A DNA stretch of 64,000 bases from Echinarachnius parma (Eukaryota; Echinodermata; Echinoidea; Clypeasteroida; Echinarachniidae). The position numbers and the translations under genes were made by a program. Shown one piece after another: positions 18,873 to 63,386 of this stretch; position 1 is the first letter of the stretch; the number at the start of each line of letters is the position of its first letter. The notes beneath the pieces were generated by a model, which did no database searches, had not been told where the DNA came from, and was given only the letters and a program-made list of their open reading frames with translations. The stretch is from contig JBAMJV010001790.1 in assembly GCA_037951105.1 (NCBI GenBank), positions 1-64,000 of the forward strand, read 5' to 3'.

Positions 18873-18990
18873 TCAGTACCACTGGGGTGTTTATCCCTTT
18901 GCCTGGCTACAAGCGATGGGAAGTGAAGACGTCATTGGTGTTTGTAATTGAACATGACTCTACCACCTCTTCCAGGAATGGTTTGTTTAA

Positions 18991-20043
18991 AATAGGGGGA
19001 CGTTGATGGCAGCATGGGGGTGCAAATAGGGGGACGTTGCTGGCAGCATGGGGGTGCAAATAGGGGGACGTTGATGGCAGCATGGGGGTGCAAATAGGGG
19101 GACGTTGATGGCAGCATGGTGGTGCAAATAGGGGGACGTTGCTGGCAGCATGGGGGTGCAAATAGGGGGACGTTGATGGCAGCATGGGGGTGCAAATAGG
19201 GGGACGTTGATGGCAGCATGGGGGTGCAAATAGGGGGACGTTGATGGCAGCATGGGGGTGCAGGGGGACGTTGATGGCAGCATGGGGGTGCAAATAGGGG
19301 GACGTTGATGGCAGCATGGGGGTGCAAATAGGGGGACGTTGATGGCAGCATGGGGGTGCAAATAGGGGGACGTTGATGGCAGCATGGGGGTGCAAATAGG
19401 GGGACGTTGATGGCAGCATGGGGGTGCAAATAGGGGGACGTTGATGGCAGCATGGGGGTGCAAATAGGGGGACGTTGATGGCAGCATGGGGGTGCAAATA
19501 GGGGGACGTTGATGGCAGCATTGGGGTGCAAATAGGGGGACATTGATGGCAGCATGGGGGTGCAAATAGGGGGAAGTTGATGGCAGCATGGGGGTGCAAA
19601 TAGGGGGACGTTGATGGCAGCATGGGGGTGCAAATAGGGGGACGTTGATGGCAGCATGGGGGTGCAAATAGGGGACGTTGATGGCAGCATGGGGGTGCAA
19701 ATAGGGGGACGTTGATGGCAGCATGGGGGTGCAAATAGGGGGACGTTGATGGCAGCATGGGGGTGCAAATAGGGGGACGTTGATGGCAGCATGGGGGTGC
19801 AAATAGGGGGACGTTGATGGCAGCATGGGGGTGCAAATAGGGGGACGTTGATGGCAGCATGGGGGTGCAAATAGGGGGACGTTGATGGCAGCATGGGGGT
19901 GCAAATAGGGGGACGTTGATGGCAGCATGGGGGTGCAAATAGGGGGACGTTGATGGCAGCATGGGGGTGCAAATAGGGGGACGTTGATGGCAGCATGGGG
20001 GTGCAAATAGGGGGACGTTGATGGCAGCATGGGGGTGCAAATT
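18991..20043. repeat. 34-bp minisatellite, about 31 copies
   Basis: Unit AATAGGGGGACGTTGATGGC followed by AGCATGGGGGTGCA. Copies are nearly identical; one lacks CAAATA-type bases near 19260 and one has a single-G deletion near 19670. Because 34 is not a multiple of 3 and the unit has no stop on the minus strand, all three minus frames stay open and give 347-385-residue false ORFs. Confidence 0.98.
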
Positions 20044-50220: not shown

Positions 50221-51924
50221 GAAGCCCCACTTTTATTTGGCAATATTTTCCCATTAAGACATGTTTTTGTTTGTTTGTTTTTCTTCTTTTTTCCAAAATC
50301 AAGTCAAGAAATGATACAAGAGTATAGTGAGATGGGGGTCGGCCCAATTTGGTGATATTGCAAGCATATGCTGATCTATCCTTGACATAGATTTGTTCTT
50401 TAAGAAGTTTGTGCATAAGAACCTCCAGAATGTGTAGTTTAGCTTCTAGTTCTGTTTTGCTCATCAGTACCCATTGAAATATTTGTAAAGGAGGATATAG
50501 AAACTGGAATTTTCATAATTTCATCAAAGATCTTTAATTGGGAAAATGCTTTCATGAAGTTAATTCAACGCTTTGCTTTGTTAACCAATAATTTAGTTAT
50601 ATCAAATGTGATTTTATTTAGGGGAAACCGGTATGGGAGTTGTTTTAATTACAAAGATAGTTTAATATATTAATTGCAGCTATTTTATATAGATCCATGG
50701 ACCACTTTTGTTGAATTAATTGGCTTTTGATGCCTTTTCACCACCGACACTAGCAAAGCTTTTAAATTGCAATTTATGGTAGATTGTCATTGACGAGGAG
50801 AAATTGTAATGTGCATTGTTTAACAGGAGAGTTAATGAATCAATACCTCAACCTTTTCATGCTTAAATCTGCTCACTTTTGTCGGATGAATTATAATTGG
50901 CTTTTGACGCCACTTCCACAACGATTCACATCACGTAATGCCTTTTGAAATACATCTGCCCGACACCTTCTGAATGCTGTTGTTGCACCGATACATAAAA
51001 CATCCATTATATTCGACCTTGGTTCATGTTTGTAATCGCTTTATGCATTTTTCCTCCGATCGAGGGGGGAGTCGATTGAATCAGGCTCGAGCTCCCAAAT
51101 TCATATCGCATTGATTCTGATTTGGAATATATTGAACGCTCAATTGAGCGAAGACTTTTTGACATCCGAGGGAATCGGGTTAGTAATTTTGAATCGTGTC
51201 TCTTTCGCTGGAAAAGGGGATGACGTACAAGGCCTTCTGCCGTACCATGGCTTCATCGATGAATTTTTTTTTGTACCAGCCACTCTGGAATTAATTTTAC
51301 CAATCTGTGCGCATATTCGCTGGATTATGTTTTTGGTCCATGGATGTTTTTGACCTTAGACTGCCAGCCTAGTATGTTTATTTCAAAATATGAAGGATCC
51401 ATCCTGGGCACACATGTTTATGTTTTTCTTATTTTGTTTTACAGGAATCTATGTCGCATGAGCTTGCATCATTGATTGTTTTTGCTGTCTATACAAACAG
51501 TTGACTGTAGTTGACTATTTACTCTCAGAAAAGTTTGTAATCGCACAAATGGAAATAACTCTTTGACCTCATTCCTTGGTGGAGATGTTTTTTAAGTGAT
51601 GAAGTGAAACAAACATTAATGATGTATGCGTGAGAGTTTGACTTCATCCAGACTTTGAAAAAGCATGTTATGCAAGCGTAAACCATCCAGCCCTTCTCCT
51701 TTCTTCTTTGAAGAACAAGGAATACATATTGTCAGTTTCTCAGAGACTAAGATGTGTAATACCAGCTAAAGGAAACGGATTAAGCCTTTTAAGGCTAAAA
51801 GGATAACCATTATATGAAGACAGTTTACTACCCAAAGGAATATCATCACCAGTGATTTCATCAGTTGTTAAAAATGACAAAAATAAAGAGACCTGATGTA
51901 GATGTTGTGTATCACAGTGAAACA
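50221..51924. other. No gene seen upstream of the Kazal gene
   Basis: Noncoding. It could include the promoter and 5' leader of the Kazal gene but no core promoter can be assigned from sequence alone. Confidence 0.45.
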
Positions 51925-52122
51925 ATTGTGTAAAGTACAGACCATAAGGAAAGATCTTGAAAACTTTACAGGAAACTTATTAATAAAATGTTCAGGAACT
52001 AAACAGAAAATCATCATAGCAAATGATTGTGTAAAATACAGATCATAAGGAAATAACTTGAACATTTTACAGGAAAATTATTTAAGTCTTCAGGAACAAT
52101 ACAGAGACTATAAAATCATCAT
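51925..52122 (+). repeat. Tandem duplication spanning the 5' leader and start codon of the Kazal gene
   Basis: Two diverged copies of about 100 bp (about 51925-52018 and 52021-52122) share gtgtaaa-tacag-cataagga, cttgaa-a-tttacaggaaa, ttcaggaac and aaatcatcat. The downstream copy ends in the ATGGC of the start codon; the upstream copy ends in ATAGC and so lacks the ATG. Confidence 0.65.
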
Positions 52123-52448
52123 GGCGAGAAGATCAATACTTCATAACCTTTTGTTGCTAATGACAATACTAACGGCGTTTCTTGCCTTTCCCCCGCCTTC
52201 CCTCTGTGGTCGCGGTCTTGGCCGTGGTCGTTGGTGGTCAGGACCCTGCGACATGGTGCTGTGCATCTTCGGTGCGACGTGCATAGAGAACGAGGGGCGC
52301 CCCCAGTGCGTGTGCGACCGTGTGTGTCCCGAGGTCTTCGCGCCGGTTTGCGGGTCGGATGGCGTCACCTACGCGAGCGAGTGCTTCCTGAAGAGGGCGT
52401 CGTGTGAGCAGAAGCGGCGCATCTCGTTCAAGTCGCAGGGAGAATGTG
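52121..52448 (+). CDS. Exon 1: signal peptide plus Kazal module 1
   Basis: From ATG 52121 the protein has a basic start (MARRS), a leucine-rich core and a small-residue cleavage region near residue 25-30. A Gly/Arg-rich linker (GRGLGRGRW) follows, then a ten-cysteine follistatin-type module with CPEVFAPVCGSDG. The predicted P1 residue (second after Kazal Cys2) is Glu. The donor is G|GTAAGT and leaves the codon after one base. The upstream extent of the exon and its promoter cannot be fixed. An in-frame ATG at 52058 is the alternative start. Confidence 0.88.
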
Positions 52449-55400
52449 GTAAGTCTCTGACGTTTTTTTTTCTTCTTTTTTTATTTGTTTTTATTTAGAC
52501 AAAATATGCACTTTCCTACAGGATTTTTATTGGGCATAAATAATAATAATAATAGTGGATACTTATATAGCGCACGTTCTGTCTTTCGACGCTTGCGCGT
52601 GGCTTTGGGAAAGAAGAAAAACGGAAAAACATTTTTTTTTGTTTTTCATGATACAATTAAATAATTAATGTGTTTTTTATCATTTATTTACGAACAAGAA
52701 AGCTTTTGGACTTAAATATTGTTTTTGTCAAATCATTGGGTAGCCCACTTTGCCACTTCACATGTATAGAACCCTGTCACATTTGATTTCAGCCGATAAT
52801 ATATAACTGGCATTTTGCTTTGTGTAGTTTATAATCATTATTTTACACCTTTCTAATTCTATGTTATATTATATTTATTTGTTATAGTTATTATTAATTT
52901 TTCTCAATCTCAATCCTGTATACATGTATAATCATTTCAATGTTCACATTGCTTTATTCATAAAATAGTTCTTTTTTCTTAATGATTCATTCAACTCTCC
53001 TTTGCTCCTTATTTAGAATATTTTCAACAATATCACCTAGCACTTATTAACCCCTCATGTCCTGTGCAAAGTTTTGCTTAAATAACAACACAGTAACATT
53101 TTTCTACAAACAGAATGGGAGCTTTCAATGCAATAGTAACCAATTTGTTGAAATTGAATCATATAGGCCCCTATAGCCTCTGTTGATTGTGATGCACTTT
53201 CGTGATCGGCCAAAACGTAAATATTGCGATAAAAGATCAAAGGTGCTCTTTTAAAAAGTGGGACAAAAGAGGGGAGGCTAAATGAAATGCAAGGTTTTCA
53301 GTTCAAAATTGAATTTGTGTAATGAAAATGGGGAGGAAATATTTACAGATAAAATATATATGTGTAGCACCTACAAATTTGTATTTGACTCTTATTTTGT
53401 TTTTCAAAATTTAGGGCCAATGTACGGTCGAGACAATAATTCTAGACAGATGCGTCAAAGTTTCTCTGAACTAATCAATTTGATTGCGTGGAATTGTAAT
53501 TTGATGGGCAGAGGGGACGCAATATGTTGTGATACCGTCACGCTCAAAAATGTAAAAAGCATCCCTGCAAAAAGATGTCGCAATTTTTCTAATTCCTATT
53601 GCAATGCATATGGGTCAAAAACCTTATTTAGTTCCAAATATTTGTAACCATCAGTCAGCAAGTATTTTGAGCAGACCGGTTTATTTTATTGTTGTTTAAT
53701 TTTTATAATTTAACCATCCTAAAAAAATAAAAATTGTCCCGATTTTGAAGTCTCCATTGCATATAAATAGGTATTGGTCATAAACCTTTTGTAATTGCAC
53801 ATATTTGCAACCATAATTGTGCATATATTTTGAGCAGAACAGTATAATTCATTTTTGTATTTAACCAATTGGTGATTTACAGAATTTGATGCATATAAGA
53901 TGCAACAATTTGTTAATTTCTATTGCATAATGTATAAGGGTCAAGAACCATATGCAATTGCTCATATTTGTATATGCGCGTTATAAATATGATATATTTG
54001 TGACAATCACTCAGGCTGTTATTTTGGGCACAGCTATATATGTACATATTTGTTTTCATATTCATTCTGTTATTGCTCAAGCCACAAAAAATGCATGCCA
54101 AATATATGCTCATGTGGAATGAATATTATATGCAGGGCTCCACACTTATCTTTTTTGTCAGTGGCCCAGTCGGGCCAGTGAAATGATTTCTTCCCCTCTT
54201 CTGGTGGCCCAGAAGAAAAATATACTGTCCCAAAATGTTTATTTCATGAGTAAACTTTTTACTATTCAAAATATCACTATTTCCTGATCAAACTTGAGAT
54301 TCTAGATGGAAGAAAGCAAGATTTTTCTCATTTTGTCAATGTCAGGTTGAAATTCTACTTGCCCGATCAGGCCACCAAAATATGACATTTATATATTTTT
54401 GCTGGCCCAAATTGCAATTTCATTGGCCTTGGGCCAGCGGGCCAGTGCAAGTGTCGAGCCCTGTTATAGGATAAGGGAAACAAAAAATAGATCAAACATG
54501 TTAGGTAAATTTGTTAAGGTTTCTTTTGGAACTTAACCCATCCAGTGCAAGAGTTTATGATTTCCATATCTTTGTTAATACAGGGTCCAACAGGTATCTG
54601 TAGGGTTAACAATAGACAAAGTCCATTTCTCACTCTCAAAATACAGCTGTACCATTTTTTTTTAAAGGTACCGACTTTGATTTGATGTCTTGCGCAAAAA
54701 CATTACTAGAATAGGAGAGTCGTACATACATGTATATATATCAGTTTTTAAAAATCGGCTTTACTTGCAGAATAGTCTGTGTAAACTTGATTTCTAGCAT
54801 TGCATTTATAGGCCTTTTGTATTACCAGGCTGTACACAATGTATGACTTACTTATATTTCACCTCTGAATCAAACAGTTTGCCAATGTTTTTTAACTGCT
54901 GTTATCTAAAGTGGGAGAAAAGCATTATTAAAAGGCTGTTTATATGACCTCTTTTCCTATTAAAATCAAGTAGATGGATTTCTTCAACGCAGAGAGAGAA
55001 AACAAAATTCCATCTTATTTTCAGAAAATTATAAAGAGCTTCCATGCTCTTACATTAAGTAAATCGTTGCCTGCAGTATTTTGAGAGCAATATTGAATAG
55101 GCATTCAGAATGTTCAGATCCTATCAAGTGTAGCATAAAAAAGAGTCTGCTATATATTGAGAGAACCGATCTCTACTAGCACTTGTGCTAACTTTTGGTT
55201 CTCTTTTATTAACAATTTTAACTTTCGTATGAATATATTTTATAGTATGTATAAAGCATAATAAGTAAACTAATCTATTACAGTAGTTCATTGTTTTGCT
55301 AATTATTTATAGTTCGTATTTTAATAATTTGTCTTGCATGTATTTTATGATGTACATACGATATTGTTTTGGTTGTTAACCCATTGCTTACGGGAACCAG

Positions 55401-57944: not shown

Positions 57945-60900
57945 GTAGTGATGGTGATGATGATGATTTTGATGTCAAGCACATCATAGAAATTAAAAAT
58001 CTTGATTCTGCTTTTATTTGTGCGTGATATTTGATTATGCATACATTTGTTGTATCCTGTGATATTGATCAAGAAATCAACATACTCTTTATGTATCAAA
58101 TTCAAGAATGAGATTTTAAAAATTGTAATGTTGTCAGTAATTACATCACAGATATTAAAGAAATCTCTGTTTTATTTCTCTCACTTCACAGTCGAAAGGG
58201 ACCCGTGTGACAATGTAACGTGCAACTTTGGTGCATCCTGCGTTACCGATGGCAACACATGGGTGTGTCTATGTCCTGAGATCTGTTTGGAGGTCTACAG
58301 TCCGGTCTGCGGGAGCGACGGGATGGACTATGGGAATGAGTGTGAACTGAACGTGGCCGCCTGCTCGCTGGGCAAGAACATTACCATCGTCTTTCAGGGC
58401 TCTTGCGGTGAGTTCTAGATTGATATCAATTGTTTGATATTTATTTTGTTGCATTTTATTGTCAAATTTAATGGAAATTCTTTTTTTTTCACATTGTTAC
58501 AATGTATAGATATGAAACAATCATAAATGAATACAGAAAATTCAAACAAAATATTACTCATTACTTACTGAGTATGTCATGTTAAGGTAAGTTTAATAAA
58601 TTGACACTTATCTGGTATCAATACTATTATTCTAATAAAGACCTTTTTGGTTGTGCTTAGAAATAATATTCATGGAGAAATAAGTGCCCGCATAATTTTG
58701 TCATGGTTGATTGCTTTGGTTTGTTTTGATGTCATTTGGTCTTTCTCTTTATATCCGCCATACAGATCCATGCAGGGACATTCAGTACGAGGATGCAGTG
58801 TGTAAGCTAGATCGTTCGCGGCAGCCCGAGCCGAGCTGTGAGTTTGACTGTACGGCCGAGCTTTCCACTCCCGTTTGCGGTTCAGACGGGATGACGTACG
58901 AAAACGAGTGCGAACTTACTCGTGCGGCGTGCTTGAGCAATCTCGAAAACCAACTCATAGTGTTCACAGAAGGAGTCTGTGAAATAGGATCACGTAAGTT
59001 TATTTACTTCTTGCAATCTTGTCATTTTTGTATGGAATACTTAGATTTCCTCTAATCTTGTTTTTGCATGCAACTTTTATAAAAATTATTCTTCGACTCC
59101 AAAGATGACTAGATCATGTATAATCCAATCCTACACAGATCCGTGTGAAGATCAGATGTGCGACTTCGGACTGTGTGTCACCGATTCATCTGGCGTGCCG
59201 CAGTGCGTGTGCGTGGGTTGCCCAGATATCTACGTTCCGGTGTGCGGGAGCGACAGCGTAACGTACAACAGTCGATGCCATCTTGATCTTGCCAGTTGCA
59301 ACAAAGAGGTCCTTATCACAGTGGTGGAAGAGGGCACTTGTCGTAAGTTGTTGTACTCTTCATTTGCATTTTTTAAATTTTAGTTTGTTGGTCGTTTGTT
59401 TGTTTGTGTGGAAGTGATGGTGTAACATACATTTGTACCACAGCCATCTTGATTTCGCTAGCTTCAAAAAGGGTTTGAAGGTTTTTGAAGAGGGTATATG
59501 CCTATTCAAAGTTGTTTTATTTATCTTTATGTGTGTGCTTGTTTATTTGTATGTTTGTTTGCGTGGAAGCGATGGTGTAACATACATTTGTATGTTTGTT
59601 TGCTTGAAACTGTTATTATACTGTACTGAATTCAAACTCTTGTCAATGTGTAAAACTTCTTAACATTTGACCTTCTTTATGCCATCCTAGAGCCCAAGAA
59701 CAAGTGACAACCTGCACAACGCCAGCATGCGAAGCAACAGAAGGTGTTTTAACGCCAGTCTGAACAGACAATGTAGACTTTGTTTGTTACTTATGTTTGT
59801 TTGTTTGTGTGTGTGTGTGGAACTTTGTTATTACTAAACTAAACTAAAAACCTGTTTCAATGTGTTTAATAAACTTCTTTACATTTGAACTCTTTCTGCC
59901 GACCCACAGCCCAAGAACAAGTGACAACCTGCACTACACCAGCGTGCGAAGCGACGGAAGGAGCGCTCACACCGGTCTGCGGAACAGATGATGTAGACTA
60001 CCCAAGCCTGTGCGCTCTACAACAGGCCGCTTGCGACCAGGATAAGACTATTGAGGTCGCCTCAAATGGTTTCTGTGGTAAGTGTTGAATTCTATACTTA
60101 TCTATAGGTAAAGTTTGAATTTAGATAGAGTTAGATTTTGAAGTGTTGAAGCAAGAAAATAAGTGAATTGCATTTGTGCTAAAAATTCTACCAACTATAT
60201 TTTCAAAGTTCACATATTCATTTAATACACTAATGATAATTTCCAGATTGACATAAGATTAGTTACTGAGAAGTATTGATTATTGACTATTTCATTGTAA
60301 ATACTTTTATGGAATAAGCCATTTAGATGAAAATATTCAATTTCTGAAATACCCCTTCCATGTTTTTGTTCACGTAGACAAATGCAACGAGGTGGAGTGC
60401 ATTCTGGGGGCATCGTGTCAGATGCGTGCCGAAGGACCCACATGTGTCTGCAGCGACCACTGCGAAATGGTCAACATGCCCGTATGCGGGTCAGATGGCG
60501 AGACATACGCCAGCGAGTGCAAACTGAACGTGATGGCCTGCACCAATCAGAAGAACATCACGGTTGTCTCATACGGAAATTGCGGTGAGTAATCCGGGCT
60601 GCAGAGCCTTGATTCAATAATGAATAATAATTATCGATGTAGCGCTGAATGCAGGGTTGCTATTAAACACTGTACCATTGTTTAAACCTTGTGTTCCTAT
60701 GAAGTCCAAGACAGATTGTTTCAATAAAATGTATCAGAATTTGTCTTAGTTGTGTCCAACAAAGCAACTATAACCAAATCTGTCTATTAAAGAAGCTCTC
60801 TATGTCTATAGCAACCAACCTGCCTAAAGTGGCCACCAAAAGTGGTCATCTGCAGTGAAAAGAACTGAAATAGATCCTGTCTATAGAGGTCATATATATC

Positions 60901-63386
60901 AAATTAAAATAATCAATTGCCATGATAGGCATAGTATAGCGTAAAAACTAAGTATGGCTATCAGGACTTGTGTTCAGGACTGGTGCCAAAAATACTCCGG
61001 CTCTGTTTAAAGGAGAAAACATTGTTTCCCTTTAGCTCTTTATTGTTCTTTTGTGTTTAATTCGAGAAAGCATATTATACTAAAATTGTGATGTCTGGAA
61101 TGGGTTAAATGAATGGTGTGCAAGTTTCTATTCCTAATCTCCACAGTTCTGTTTTCTGTTTGATTCAGACCTTTGTCTTGGTGCCATGTGTTAGTCCTTA
61201 ACATTTTATTATTTTGAAAAGGATAAATGAATGGCATGCAAGATTCTTTCCTAATCTCTCCTTAATTCCGGTTTTCTGTTTGATTCAGACGACTGTCTTG
61301 GCGTCACGTGCCGAACCGAAGACTACAACGAGGTTTGCTACCAAGGCGTGTGCGTCTGCCAGGAGTCCTGTGCGCTTGCGCGTGCGGAAGAGGACAACGT
61401 GTGCGGAACGGACGGAAAGACCTACGACACGCTGTGTGCCATGCAAGCTGAGGCGTGCGTGAGCCAATCCAACCTCTCCGTGGAAAGCTATGGACCTTGC
61501 GAAAGTAAGCATATTTCTTTGTATGTCTGTTTTTTATTTGCTTTTGGTTTGGATTATAGCTACAGTGACAAAAGTCTGTCCCACATTAGTCCCTCCATTA
61601 GGACAAGGATGCATGTACCAGATACTTACACAGGGCTTGACACTAGCACTTGCCGATCGCCTGGGGCAAGTAAAGATTGATGCCTGGCAAGTTAAATTCC
61701 ATGAATGGTCTAGTTTGGTTGCCTGATCGGGAAAGTAGCAATTCTGTTCAACTATGAGAGAAAAATGTTAAGTTCTCCTTTTGTGTAAATCCCATCTAGA
61801 AACAAGGGAAACATTTTCCAAGCAAATCGAGCGACCTAACGCAATTCATTTTTCTTTTGTTTCCTGTATTCTATTGTAATGTGTGTTTGTGCAGTATTGC
61901 TCACAATTTTGTTAGGTTTCCTCATAAATTTAGTACAAGGCCCACCAGGTCTTATATATATAGGCATGGGTTAGTACTTGGTTTCCATTAATTGCCACCT
62001 CAATATATTATTTTTTTTGGACAGACAACTGCCGAGGTGTGGTGTGCAATACTGAGCTGTTCAACGAGGTGTGTTACTATGGTGTGTGCGTCTGCCAGGA
62101 GTCATGCCCGACATCGCGGTCAGAAGAGGACAACGTGTGCGGAACAGACGACGAAACATACGACACGATCTGCCACCTGAAGGCCGCGGCGTGCCGGAGC
62201 CAGTCCAACCTCACCGTCGAGGCCTATGGACCCTGCGAAAGTGAGTCAACATTTCCTTTCTAGCGTTCCACTTTCCATATTGATTTATTTGTGCATGTTT
62301 TCTTTGCGATAAGTTTAAAAGAAGAGTTGAAAGAGAACATACACTGCAAACTTCAAGGCAATTTAACCTTATTGACCAAAGAAGCCATCTGGACATGGCT
62401 GCAAAGAGCTGTAGTCCTTTTCTGCTTTTTAAAAATATTATTTCATCATATCAATTGTTGTCTGACCTGCTATGTACAGCTGGTTTATATTAGTGAGGTG
62501 TACTTTTAATGAATTTTTTACCAAATAAATATCTTTATTTGTTGTTTTGTCTGAGGTTCTGGAAGTGGAAGCGGCACCATCCCACCAGAAATCATCCAGG
62601 TCTGCGATGACGTCTCGTGCGGCTTTGGTGGAATATGCCGCCCTCTATCTACGGAAGAGTACCAGTGCGTCTGCAACTTCAACTGCCCGGCTGTGCGGTC
62701 GCCAGTATGCGGCACTGACAGCGTAACCTATGGCAACGATTGTCAGCGCCGTGAGGCTGCGTGCGAGCAACAGGCTAGCATTATCCTGGAGAGAGTTGGG
62801 ACATGTGAAGGTATGTTTGAGAATGCGATTGAATGTGTTAGAACAAAGACACACATAAAAGAAAGAATGGCTTATTAGAGACATTTTGTTTAGCTGACTT
62901 GAATTTGCCTATATCTTTCAACTACCCGGCCATGCGATTGCCCTGTCTGCAGTACAGATGGCATAACCTAAAGGAAAAGACTATCAGTGTATTGTATTTT
63001 GTATTATCAAATTGATATTCATAAAAGAGAGATTTTTTTATTTAGCGTCCTTCCTCTAGATATTGAGATCGAGCTATGGGGAAATTCCCCTAGTTATGGA
63101 GGGTACATGGGAGTACTACACCTGTTTTTATTTCACTAAAAACAATGCATCTAATTATCAATATTCATCCTTCGTATTATCTTTTAACATTGACAAGATA
63201 ATGGTACATTGTTTTCATATCTCCATCTAGATATTGAGATTGAGCGGTGCGATGGGGAGAGCCCCCTAGTTAGGGAGGGGACCACGGACCTCTACACCTG
63301 TAACGAGGATAACAGGGGGGAGGATTGCCCCTCGGGCAGTTACTGCCACATACACCCCCTTGGAACATTCTCTGTCTGCTGTCCGG
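52121..63386 (+). CDS. Secreted multi-Kazal (follistatin/agrin-like) protein with lustrin-type domain, 11 exons, 3' end uncertain
   Basis: Spliced gene joined from 52121-52448, 57578-57793, 58192-58407, 58766-58993, 59139-59342, 59910-60077, 60378-60584, 61289-61504, 62025-62240, 62556-62810 and 63231-63386. All introns are GT-AG and phase 1, and the joined frame is open for 803 codons plus one base. The product begins with a hydrophobic signal peptide, followed by ten cysteine-rich modules of follistatin/agrin type (EGF-like hairpin plus Kazal, hallmark PVCGSDGxTYxNEC) and one lustrin-type module ending CCPG. It is expected to be secreted or extracellular matrix. Kazal modules inhibit serine proteases or bind growth factors; which applies here is unknown. 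The repeats resemble the N-terminal region of agrin, but no laminin-G, SEA or laminin-EGF domain is visible, so agrin identity is not shown. Exon GC is much higher than in the flanking introns. The start is chosen at 52121 because it gives a clean signal peptide; an in-frame ATG at 52058 would add 21 polar residues in front of it. Confidence 0.88.
53578..54040. repeat. Three diverged tandem copies of about 167 bp in intron 1
   Basis: ATTGCAT-ATA-GGGTCA-AAACC, TTGCACATATTTG-AACCAT and ATTTTGAGCAGA recur. Confidence 0.75.
54133..54463. mobile_element. 331-bp hAT-like element in intron 1
   Basis: CAGGGCTCCACACTT at the left and AAGTGTCGAGCCCTG at the right are inverted. Flanks TTATATG and TTATAGG are a likely decayed target duplication. 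Confidence 0.8.
55376..55455. mobile_element. 80-bp TTAA element, family A, in intron 1
   Basis: TTAA both sides; CCCATTGCTTACGGGAACC left, GAAGGGAAAGGG right. Confidence 0.82.
55469..55854. mobile_element. 386-bp TTAA element, family C, in intron 1
   Basis: TTAAAGGGATCTACTAACTT left, AAAGTCCCTTTAA right; internal text matches the copies at 6130 and 17383. Confidence 0.85.
55976..56055. mobile_element. 80-bp TTAA element, family A, in intron 1
   Basis: Left flank decayed to TTGA, right TTAA; CCCGTTCCCTACAAG and GTCAAGGGG ends nearly identical to the copy at 5996. Confidence 0.82.
57578..57793 (+). CDS. Exon 2: Kazal module 2
   Basis: 72 codons, acceptor cttgtag, donor G|GTGAGT, phase 1 at both ends. 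It encodes ERDPCQDIQCNYGGEC, then CLLAYDPVCGSDGMTYSNDC and a terminal GQC, with all ten cysteines. The predicted P1 is Leu, the only classic hydrophobic P1 apart from Met in module 7, so this is the best candidate for a chymotrypsin- or elastase-type inhibitor. The exon lacks a useful internal ATG and is easily missed by ORF listing; an antisense open frame over it is a shadow. Confidence 0.9.
57806..57967. repeat. GAT/ATG trinucleotide microsatellite in intron 2
   Basis: Nearly pure GAT repeats start immediately after the exon 2 donor. They create false Asp-rich (+) and Ile-rich (-) open frames. Confidence 0.95.
58192..58407 (+). CDS. Exon 3: Kazal module 3
   Basis: 72 codons, acceptor ttcacag, donor G|GTGAGT, phase 1-1. 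The module reads VERDPCDNVTCNFGASC, then CLEVYSPVCGSDGMDYGNEC, and closes with GSC. All ten cysteines are present and Kazal Cys2-Cys3 spacing is the canonical seven residues. It has potential N-glycosylation sites (NVT, NIT). The predicted P1 is Glu. It is the closest of the set to textbook agrin follistatin repeats. Confidence 0.92.
58766..58993 (+). CDS. Exon 4: Kazal module 4, two cysteines missing
   Basis: 76 codons, acceptor atacag, donor C|GTAAGT, phase 1-1. The Kazal half is intact (STPVCGSDGMTYENEC). The EGF-like hairpin has lost two cysteines: the usual second Cys is Tyr (DIQY), and the fourth is gone because the usual Cys-x-Cys-x3-Cys is reduced to SCEFDC. Cys2-Cys3 of the Kazal half is eight residues instead of seven. 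It ends with an extra EIGS linker. Confidence 0.88.
59139..59342 (+). CDS. Exon 5: Kazal module 5
   Basis: 68 codons, acceptor ctacacag, donor C|GTAAGT, phase 1-1. It encodes HPCEDQMCDFGLC, then CPDIYVPVCGSDSVTYNSRC and EEGTC. Ten cysteines and canonical seven-residue Cys2-Cys3 spacing; predicted P1 is Asp. Two decayed copies of parts of this exon lie in the following intron. Confidence 0.88.
59401..59505 (+). pseudogene. Decayed copy of exon 5 (3' half)
   Basis: Aligns with exon 5 from the VCGSDSVTY region to its end. The best-kept parts are the stretch encoding HLDFASFKKG (exon 5: HLDLASCNKE) and EEGIC (exon 5: EEGTC). Cysteines are lost and the frame is shifted, so it cannot encode a functional module. 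Confidence 0.75.
59555..59590 (+). pseudogene. Second, shorter relic of exon 5
   Basis: Encodes GSDGVTY in one frame and is nearly identical to the first relic over gtggaagcgatggtgtaaca. It is flanked by TATGTTTGTTTG repeats that also flank the first relic, so it looks like a secondary duplication. Confidence 0.6.
59693..59782 (+). pseudogene. Decayed tandem copy of exon 6 with in-frame stop
   Basis: The 3' splice site and the first 23 codons match exon 6 closely (QEQVTTCTTPACEATEG retained). The codons for Cys-Gly in PVCGTD have collapsed by a 3-base loss to TGA at 59761-59763. The intron DNA before both copies is also duplicated, giving a unit of about 217 bp. Confidence 0.85.
59910..60077 (+). 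CDS. Exon 6: Kazal module 6 without the EGF-like half
   Basis: 56 codons, acceptor acccacag, donor G|GTAAGT, phase 1-1. Only six cysteines are present, so this is a bare Kazal domain: TCTTPACEATEG, then LTPVCGTDDVDYPSLC and NGFC. Cys2-Cys3 spacing is ten residues, which would distort the usual inhibitory loop. A tandem decayed copy with a stop codon lies about 217 bp upstream. Confidence 0.85.
60378..60584 (+). CDS. Exon 7: Kazal module 7
   Basis: 69 codons, acceptor cacgtag, donor G|GTGAGT, phase 1-1. It encodes DKCNEVECILGASC, then CEMVNMPVCGSDGETYASEC and GNC. Ten cysteines, canonical spacing, predicted P1 Met. An overlapping open frame one base off is a shadow. Confidence 0.9.
60585..61104 (+). 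other. Intron 7, no exon seen
   Basis: Noncoding. It contains a GATGTAGCGC-type dispersed repeat near 60620 and a half-copy of the CAGGACTGGT repeat family near 60970. Confidence 0.6.
61105..61194 (+). pseudogene. Decayed copy of the exon 8 acceptor and 5' end
   Basis: The intron end (tttctgtttgattcag) and first codons (CLGAMC then TAG at 61192-61194) duplicate the true exon 8 start (CLGVTCR) with a period of about 120 bp. The match ends soon after the stop. Confidence 0.75.
61289..61504 (+). CDS. Exon 8: Kazal module 8 (divergent type)
   Basis: 72 codons, acceptor tgattcag, donor A|GTAAGC, phase 1-1. It encodes DDCLGVTCRTEDYNEVC, then VCVCQESCALARAEEDNVC and GPCE. Ten cysteines, but Kazal Cys2-Cys3 spacing is ten residues with an acidic EEDN stretch replacing the usual xPV. 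It is clearly paralogous to exon 9: same length, shared VCVCQESC, EEDNVCGTD and SQSNL.VE.YGPCE. A decayed copy of its 5' end lies upstream. Confidence 0.88.
61631..61740. mobile_element. Relic of the CAGGGCTYGACACTAGCAC hAT-like family in intron 8
   Basis: Starts CAGGGCTTGACACTAGCACT and continues with the family's gggcaagtaaa and cctgatcggg blocks. The other end is degraded. Confidence 0.6.
62025..62240 (+). CDS. Exon 9: Kazal module 9 (divergent type, duplicate of exon 8)
   Basis: 72 codons, acceptor ggacag, donor A|GTGAGT, phase 1-1. It encodes NNCRGVVCNTELFNEVC, then VCVCQESCPTSRSEEDNVC and GPCE. It shares length, loop spacing (ten residues) and most residues with exon 8, so the two arose by exon duplication. 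Confidence 0.9.
62556..62810 (+). CDS. Exon 10: Ser-Gly linker plus Kazal module 10
   Basis: 85 codons, acceptor gtctgag, donor G|GTATGT, phase 1-1. It opens with SSGSGSGTIPPEII, a flexible linker after an acidic residue that fits a glycosaminoglycan-attachment site. It is followed by CDDVSCGFGGIC, then CPAVRSPVCGTDSVTYGNDC and GTCE. Ten cysteines and canonical spacing; predicted P1 is Ala. Confidence 0.87.
62906..62990 (+). pseudogene. Decayed copy of the middle of exon 10
   Basis: About 85 bp align with exon 10 from CVCNFNCPAVRSPVC through SVTYGNDCQ with one single-base gap. TAT of TYG has become TAA. It lies about 90 bp downstream of the true exon 10. Confidence 0.75.
63058..63125 (+). 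pseudogene. Decayed copy of the exon 11 5' end
   Basis: The acceptor (cctctag) plus about 66 bp match exon 11 (shared starts atattgagat and blocks gatgggga, cccctagtta, ctacacctgt). Small deletions break the frame. The true exon 11 follows about 170 bp downstream. Confidence 0.75.
63231..63386 (+). CDS. Exon 11: lustrin-type cysteine-rich module
   Basis: 52 codons, acceptor catctag, donor G|GTAAGG, phase 1-1. It encodes ERCDGESPLVREGTTDLY, then TCNEDNRGEDCPSGSYC and FSVCCPG. The order C-x2-G-x-P-L, C, CP-x-G-x-Y-C, CCPG matches the lustrin cysteine-rich repeat found in many invertebrate secreted proteins. The following exon is not certain. Confidence 0.8.

Follow-up and report, generated by a model that had tools for sequence, protein, structure and literature searches.

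Half-exon relics in the introns of a Kazal gene of Echinarachnius parma look like scars of short tandem duplications across splice sites

In vertebrates, repair-mediated duplications of proximal DNA have been reported that are short (up to 619 bp) and closely linked (Pace et al. 2009, PMC2671141). As with the relics described below, what they copy includes exons, partial stretches of exon and intron, and splice sites, and they form part of a general background process. They are recognised by microhomology, filler sequence or a small deletion at the breakpoints relative to an empty site; at the locus analysed here, divergence has blurred the breakpoints. Table 2 of that work contains four partial exon/intron donors among 824 events; our own counts are made per exon, so that the two rates are not directly comparable. 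In a survey of 20 genomes with Exonize, genes with intronic and inter-boundary duplications of exons significantly outnumbered those with full-exon duplications (PMC12343006), and the catalogue holds, as do the introns analysed here, partial and inter-boundary matches derived from exons of the same gene. As presented there, Exonize classifies such matches, whereas a separation of copies that were dead on arrival from dead modules, by the side of the exon they hold and by codon position, is attempted in the present work. In potato, a tandem duplication crossing an exon boundary created a new intron (PMC4974935). The duplicated unit there joined the 3' end of an intron to the 5' portion of the exon, as in three copies at our locus (those of exons e5, e7 and e10), but the new potato intron is spliced, whereas the extra acceptors described here are putative.

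Here, we analysed a window of 64,000 bases (bases 1-64000 of contig C1789) from the 1.2-Gb assembly of Echinarachnius parma, which consists of 14,790 contigs. An earlier note on this sequence had described the introns of a Kazal gene as a graveyard of the gene's own exons. In our search of open-licence papers, we did not find relics in this gene described.

Between 57.5 and 63.4 kb on the forward strand, the gene comprises ten exons, e1 to e10, numbered one lower than in the earlier note. Pfam searches placed a Kazal domain in nine of them and a Lustrin-type cysteine-rich domain in the tenth, e10. Every exon length is divisible by three, the splice sites are GT/AG and the reading frames correspond to phase 1-1. 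For the upstream exon e0, the gene's own Kazal HMM matches an open frame at 52049-52495, with PF00050 at 52322-52447. The top solved-structure match of e1 and e2 is agrin (8s9p, 2.4e-93); judged by its tandem follistatin/Kazal exons and by this match, the gene is of an agrin-like FOLN/Kazal type. It probably extends past the window to include a further Kazal exon at ~69 kb and EGF domains at 82-83 kb, which were found on the same contig. Neither an Rfam match at gathering score nor a tRNA was found in the window. A second copy of 59139-60590 was sought in the genome, and the stretch matched itself and three short stretches only.

Table 1. Exons of the Kazal gene and relics in its introns, with positions in the window. 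Identities of relics refer to the parental stretch unless stated otherwise.
Feature	Position	Strand	Parental stretch	Evidence
e0, first coding exon	52121..52448	+		start codon, signal-like N-terminus (judged by eye) and first Kazal domain
e4 (exon 5 of the earlier note), FOLN/Kazal	59139..59342	+		PF07648 1.9e-10; splice sites
e4 relic: 3' half of exon (nt 103-204) and intron head, donor GT lost	59405..59545	+	59241-59375	90/129, 70%; z 9.2
Second copy of e4 relic	59550..59593	+		93% to first relic over 44 bp
e5 relic: intron tail, acceptor region and exon nt 1-90	59576..59779	+	59785-59999	162/202, 80%; z 22
e5 (exon 6 of the earlier note), Kazal	59910..60077	+		PF07648 1.3e-12
e7 acceptor-region copy: ~88 nt of intron and 22 nt of exon	61081..61190	+	61199-61310	78%
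e7 (exon 8 of the earlier note), Kazal, old paralogue of e8	61289..61504	+		Pfam; 70% amino acid identity to e8
e8 (exon 9 of the earlier note), Kazal	62025..62240	+		Pfam; comparison with e7
e9 (exon 10 of the earlier note), Kazal	62556..62810	+		PF07648 3.6e-9
e9 relic: exon nt 123-193, downstream intron	62917..62989	+		z 11.9; exon sequence alone recognisable
e10 relic: intron tail, acceptor and first 71 exon nt	62980..63125	+	63154-63301	103/138, 75%; z 13.4
e10 (exon 11 of the earlier note), Lustrin-type cysteine-rich domain	63231..63386	+		PF14625 8.2e-9

For detection of relics, exon-only queries were aligned to the introns and compared with dinucleotide-shuffled introns (60 shuffles per pair). 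Four exons found a match above all 60 shuffles (z values in Table 1): e4 at 59405-59502 in the intron after it, e5 at 59693-59779 in the intron before it, e9 at 62917-62989 in the intron after it and e10 at 63059-63125 in the intron before it. Their scores of 160-293 compare with shuffle maxima of 81-119. For these four exons, the claim that decayed copies lie beside their parents is thus borne out by the very comparison with shuffled introns that the earlier note had named as a possible refutation. For e7, whose relic had been listed there as well, the picture is mixed: with a score of 291 versus a shuffle maximum of 223 in the window scan described below, the upstream copy is a genuine tandem duplication, but it holds only 22 bases of the exon, and e7 alone as a query gave no relic signal. 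No relic was found within the 600-bp flanks of e0-e3, e6, e8 and, with the exon alone as query, e7 by the rule that a match must exceed all 100 shuffles with z>4.5.

Chance similarity or low-complexity alignment is hardly credible as an explanation. It could draw on the TTTG-rich intron at ~59390-59620, which blurs edges (among them the left edge of the e5 relic), on the little exon sequence in the e7 relic and on a few further exon/intron pairs that barely beat 60 shuffles. Among the best four pairs per intron in a table of all exons by all introns, these weak pairs were e4 with the e8-e9 intron (z 4.8, score 101 versus 83), e1 with the e6-e7 intron (z 3.6), e3 with the e5-e6 intron (z 3.1) and e4 with the e7-e8 intron (z 2.6); e1 and e3 also scored slightly above shuffles on the e9 relic itself, and none of these pairs was counted. 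Against chance stand the score distances of the four relics, for which the shuffle test already refutes it, and three duplications that exceed the shuffle maximum of the scan.

The copies are partial throughout. Exon bases held by the relics amount to 102/204 for e4, 90/168 for e5, 71/255 for e9 (nt 123-193) and 71/156 for e10, i.e. at most about half an exon, and a whole-exon span with both splice sites is absent from every copy in the window. Those of e4, e5, e7 and e10 include adjoining intron as well as exon. All window copies lie in direct orientation adjacent to their parent, with gaps to the parental unit of 5 bp (e5, which almost abuts it at 59785), 10 bp (e7), 28 bp (e10) and 29 bp (e4). 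The intron parts of the relics have diverged by 0.24-0.39 and contain many gaps, so that several ages are visible at the locus, as had been claimed. The earlier note had also counted e4 as copied twice. Two copies can indeed be seen, but the segment at 59550-59593 is closer to the first relic than to exon e4 and is therefore a copy of that relic and not of the exon itself. An 18-mer common to 59545 and 59586 suggests that the rest of this second copy was removed by deletion between short repeats.

A single duplication reaching from the middle of e4 to the middle of e5 was considered for the neighbouring relics of these exons and rejected, as it would place the half copy of e5 ahead of that of e4, contrary to the observed order.

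The acceptors carried by the copies bear on a further reading, in which the relics are functional intronic elements under selection, such as alternative exons, decoy splice sites or splicing enhancers. In the e7 relic, the acceptor and the last ~15 intron bases are unchanged, and an AG is retained in those of e5 and e10. Nevertheless, use of any of these three acceptors would bring a frameshift or stops, the donor of the e4 relic is destroyed and the intron parts are diverged and gapped to the extent given above. We regard selected function of this kind as very improbable.

Scars of the same kind are present at other loci. We assembled 31 Kazal query exons and set one aside as itself a relic (L011:5709-5864); of the remaining 30, 11 lie in the window and 19 elsewhere on contigs C1789, C899 and C348, the queries outside the window being domain matches (E under 1e-4) and not full exons. 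A relic within 600 bp accompanied 10 of the 30 exons, 4/11 in the window and 6/19 elsewhere (P 1.0 for the difference). From 150 CUB matches listed, 30 loci were sampled, of which 2 were excluded because of a stop or an unclear place and 8 as near-identical. Among the resulting 20 CUB exons, 2 had a relic within 600 bp (P 0.09 versus 10/30 for Kazal exons). Loci L039 and L042 gave no relic match, and a third match, at L066, was left uncounted as the neighbouring intact CUB domain of the same exon. In the CUB gene at L044 (contig C378, reverse strand 1036-1592), two upstream half-exon relics form a ladder with the live exon. Each consists of intron tail and ~95 exon bases; the alignment can be stretched over 197 of the 201 bases of the match, which would count against a partial copy, although good identity ends after ~95. 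Two successive upstream relics of one exon also occur in Kazal genes on contigs C899 and C348 (L017, reverse strand 2441-2924; L011, 5547-6089). Within this sample, the scars are special neither to the window gene nor, clearly, to Kazal exons, and the earlier description of the locus as unusual does not stand in view of the 6/19 Kazal and 2/20 CUB exons of the same genome with similar scars. The locus looks like a clear, dense example of a known process, not like a special graveyard.

We read 16 relics with respect to their parents, five in the window, eight by other Kazal exons and three by CUB exons. Twelve are placed upstream of the parent and four downstream. Eleven of the 12 upstream relics hold the 5' side of the exon (the exception is the weak L014y, which covers the exon middle), and all four downstream relics hold a 3' or middle-to-3' part. 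In the window, this takes the form of intron tail, acceptor and 5' part of the exon upstream of the parent, and of a 3' or middle-to-3' exon part downstream. All 16 relics have lost the side that faces the parent or keep it only in decayed form; in the e9 relic and in the weak L014y, both exon ends are missing. If a tandem duplication begins in an exon and ends in an intron, or the reverse, it necessarily leaves such a half copy next to an intact exon. We thus suggest that the relics are probably scars of ordinary tandem DNA duplications that span a splice site, with a short unit of ~118-240 bp.

With one breakpoint of such a duplication in exon sequence and one in intron sequence, the gene would keep one intact exon, and its intron would gain half an exon together with a second copy of the splice site. 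The event would survive because selection tolerates the half-exon copy, and the exon half of the copy would remain recognisable for longer because the parent exon is held still by selection. The duplications may arise by break repair or replication slippage. Most copies would never have been spliced, and their main effect would be a lengthened intron with decaying decoy splice sites.

A background of local duplications was found in the window as a whole. We scanned it with 120-bp queries against the following 360 bp, using the maximum of 4788 shuffled positions as threshold. Of 25 tandem-duplication clusters above this maximum, three lie in the 5.9-kb Kazal block, which is no excess (P 0.41; P 0.10 with the e4 and e9 relics added). 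The 22 clusters outside the block are local duplications with a spacing of 66-441 bp and identities of 72-100%. Ten more 10-kb stretches around Kazal matches contained 11 clusters in 100 kb; the window is richer in clusters than this other sequence scanned, and the term 'genome-wide' rests on few loci. When units of 21 background lengths were dropped at random in the Kazal block, tolerated events were 55% partial exon, 41% intron only and 3% whole exon, and the chance of zero whole exons in five exon-touching events was 0.75. Five partial copies and no whole copy are hence what chance leads one to expect.

The earlier note had proposed a different history, a birth and death of modules through repeated single-exon duplication and loss. 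On this view, each copy would have been a complete exon, spliced in as an additional Kazal module until deletion and decay left half of it. Exon lengths divisible by three and phase 1-1 would make extra copies tolerable, and the live pair e7/e8 demonstrates that a whole-exon duplication can be retained. A whole-exon copy cut by a deletion between the copies looks like a half copy of partial origin; we rejected abutment as proof of partial origin for this reason, and abutment by itself does not decide. Such a history leads one to expect, however, some relics that have lost only the far side and some surviving whole relics, whereas 0/5 window relics are whole and the loss is on the parent-facing side in every relic read. 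As the copies are partial and fit a geometry with one breakpoint in the exon, they need never have been spliced modules. We therefore do not follow the view of single-exon duplications later lost as a general account of the locus and consider it unlikely.

The live pair had been taken as part of the same series. With 70% amino acid identity, e7 and e8 are the closest pair among the nine Kazal exons (next 52%), with dS 1.02 and dN 0.21. Their upstream introns show a homology score no better than shuffles, and their downstream introns a score of 108, compared to a shuffle 95th percentile of 102 and maximum of 127. Given this dS and the lack of clear intron homology, compared with the much lower divergence of the relic introns, the pair is an older and separate event and not the start of the relic series, and its greater age counts against module turnover as the origin of the relics.

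Third codon positions give a different indication for individual relics. Among the five window relics (e7 included), 48/82 differences (0.585) fall on third positions, with 11/14 in e5, 18/30 in e4, 11/19 in e9, 6/13 in e10 and 2/6 in e7. Simulation of a dead copy of a constrained exon gave a third-position share of 0.43-0.45 over ten settings of CpG, AT bias and divergence, under which 48/82 has a P of 0.000-0.010. A rough likelihood comparison favoured always over never constrained by ~86x and 137x in two settings, the e4 cell at full constraint resting on 13 and 5 simulations; over all five relics, it preferred constraint during most or all of the time since duplication. The excess in e5 and e4 and the simulations argue for module turnover; no past constraint is evident in the relics of e7 and e10 (a frameshifting gap of 5 bases lies in the latter), which argues against it. 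The eight relics of other Kazal genes, as a set, do so too, their share of 59/150 (0.39) being close to that simulated for dead copies. The counts come from local alignments, of which that of L014y is weak. Window and other relics differ with a Fisher P of 0.006 (0.04 without e5), and pooled they amount to 107/232 (0.46). The CUB relics, kept out of the 59/150, gave 10/32 at L043 (no excess) and 5/10 for the core of L044.

The third-position excess in the e4 and e5 relics, the best argument in favour of the earlier note's view, is hard to obtain from a copy that was dead on arrival, and one or both may therefore have been coding. Thus, the relic class as a whole seems to have been dead on arrival, and one or two relics, e5 and perhaps e4, may be exceptions that were once live. 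We consider it rather doubtful that both were full copies of an exon in use as Kazal modules, kept under coding selection for the greater part of their lifetime until a deletion removed the parent-facing half. If it were so, the number of modules in this gene would recently have risen and fallen.

For the relics in general, we retain short duplications across splice sites as the probable origin and suggest a simple rule: where it is always the parent-facing half that is missing, a copy most likely originated as a tandem duplication across a splice site, and there is no need to assume that it ever served as a module. A census that scored such relics as dead modules would exaggerate the birth and death of exons. 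With scars of different ages, the locus and the genome could be used to test intron lengthening and the decay of decoy splice sites.

Some further observations were made at the locus and in the assembly. Exons e4 (59255-59257) and e9 (62720-62722) each have a Ser codon (AGC) in the Kazal CGxDG motif where both of their relics encode Gly, and it seems that the relics preserve the older state at this site. The 5' UTR contains a 101-bp tandem duplication reaching the start codon (51920..52125, forward strand), with copies at 51920-52020 and 52021-52125 that are 85% identical; the ATG of the second copy reads ATA in the first. A dispersed repeat of ~230 bp occupies 61631-61861 in the e7-e8 intron and has at least 40 genomic matches of 73-83% (40 of 4639 candidates were scored); the inverted arms I2 and I3 tie it to inverted kin near 54349-54506. 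Kinase matches in the assembly are often paired, with identical scores on two contigs (e.g. C3025 and C4211), as if both haplotypes had been kept; 59139-60590 is without such a twin contig copy. At 18990-20042, a 34-bp unit is repeated 31 times with 97% likeness; it is G-rich on the forward strand, and the reverse strand is open in three frames.
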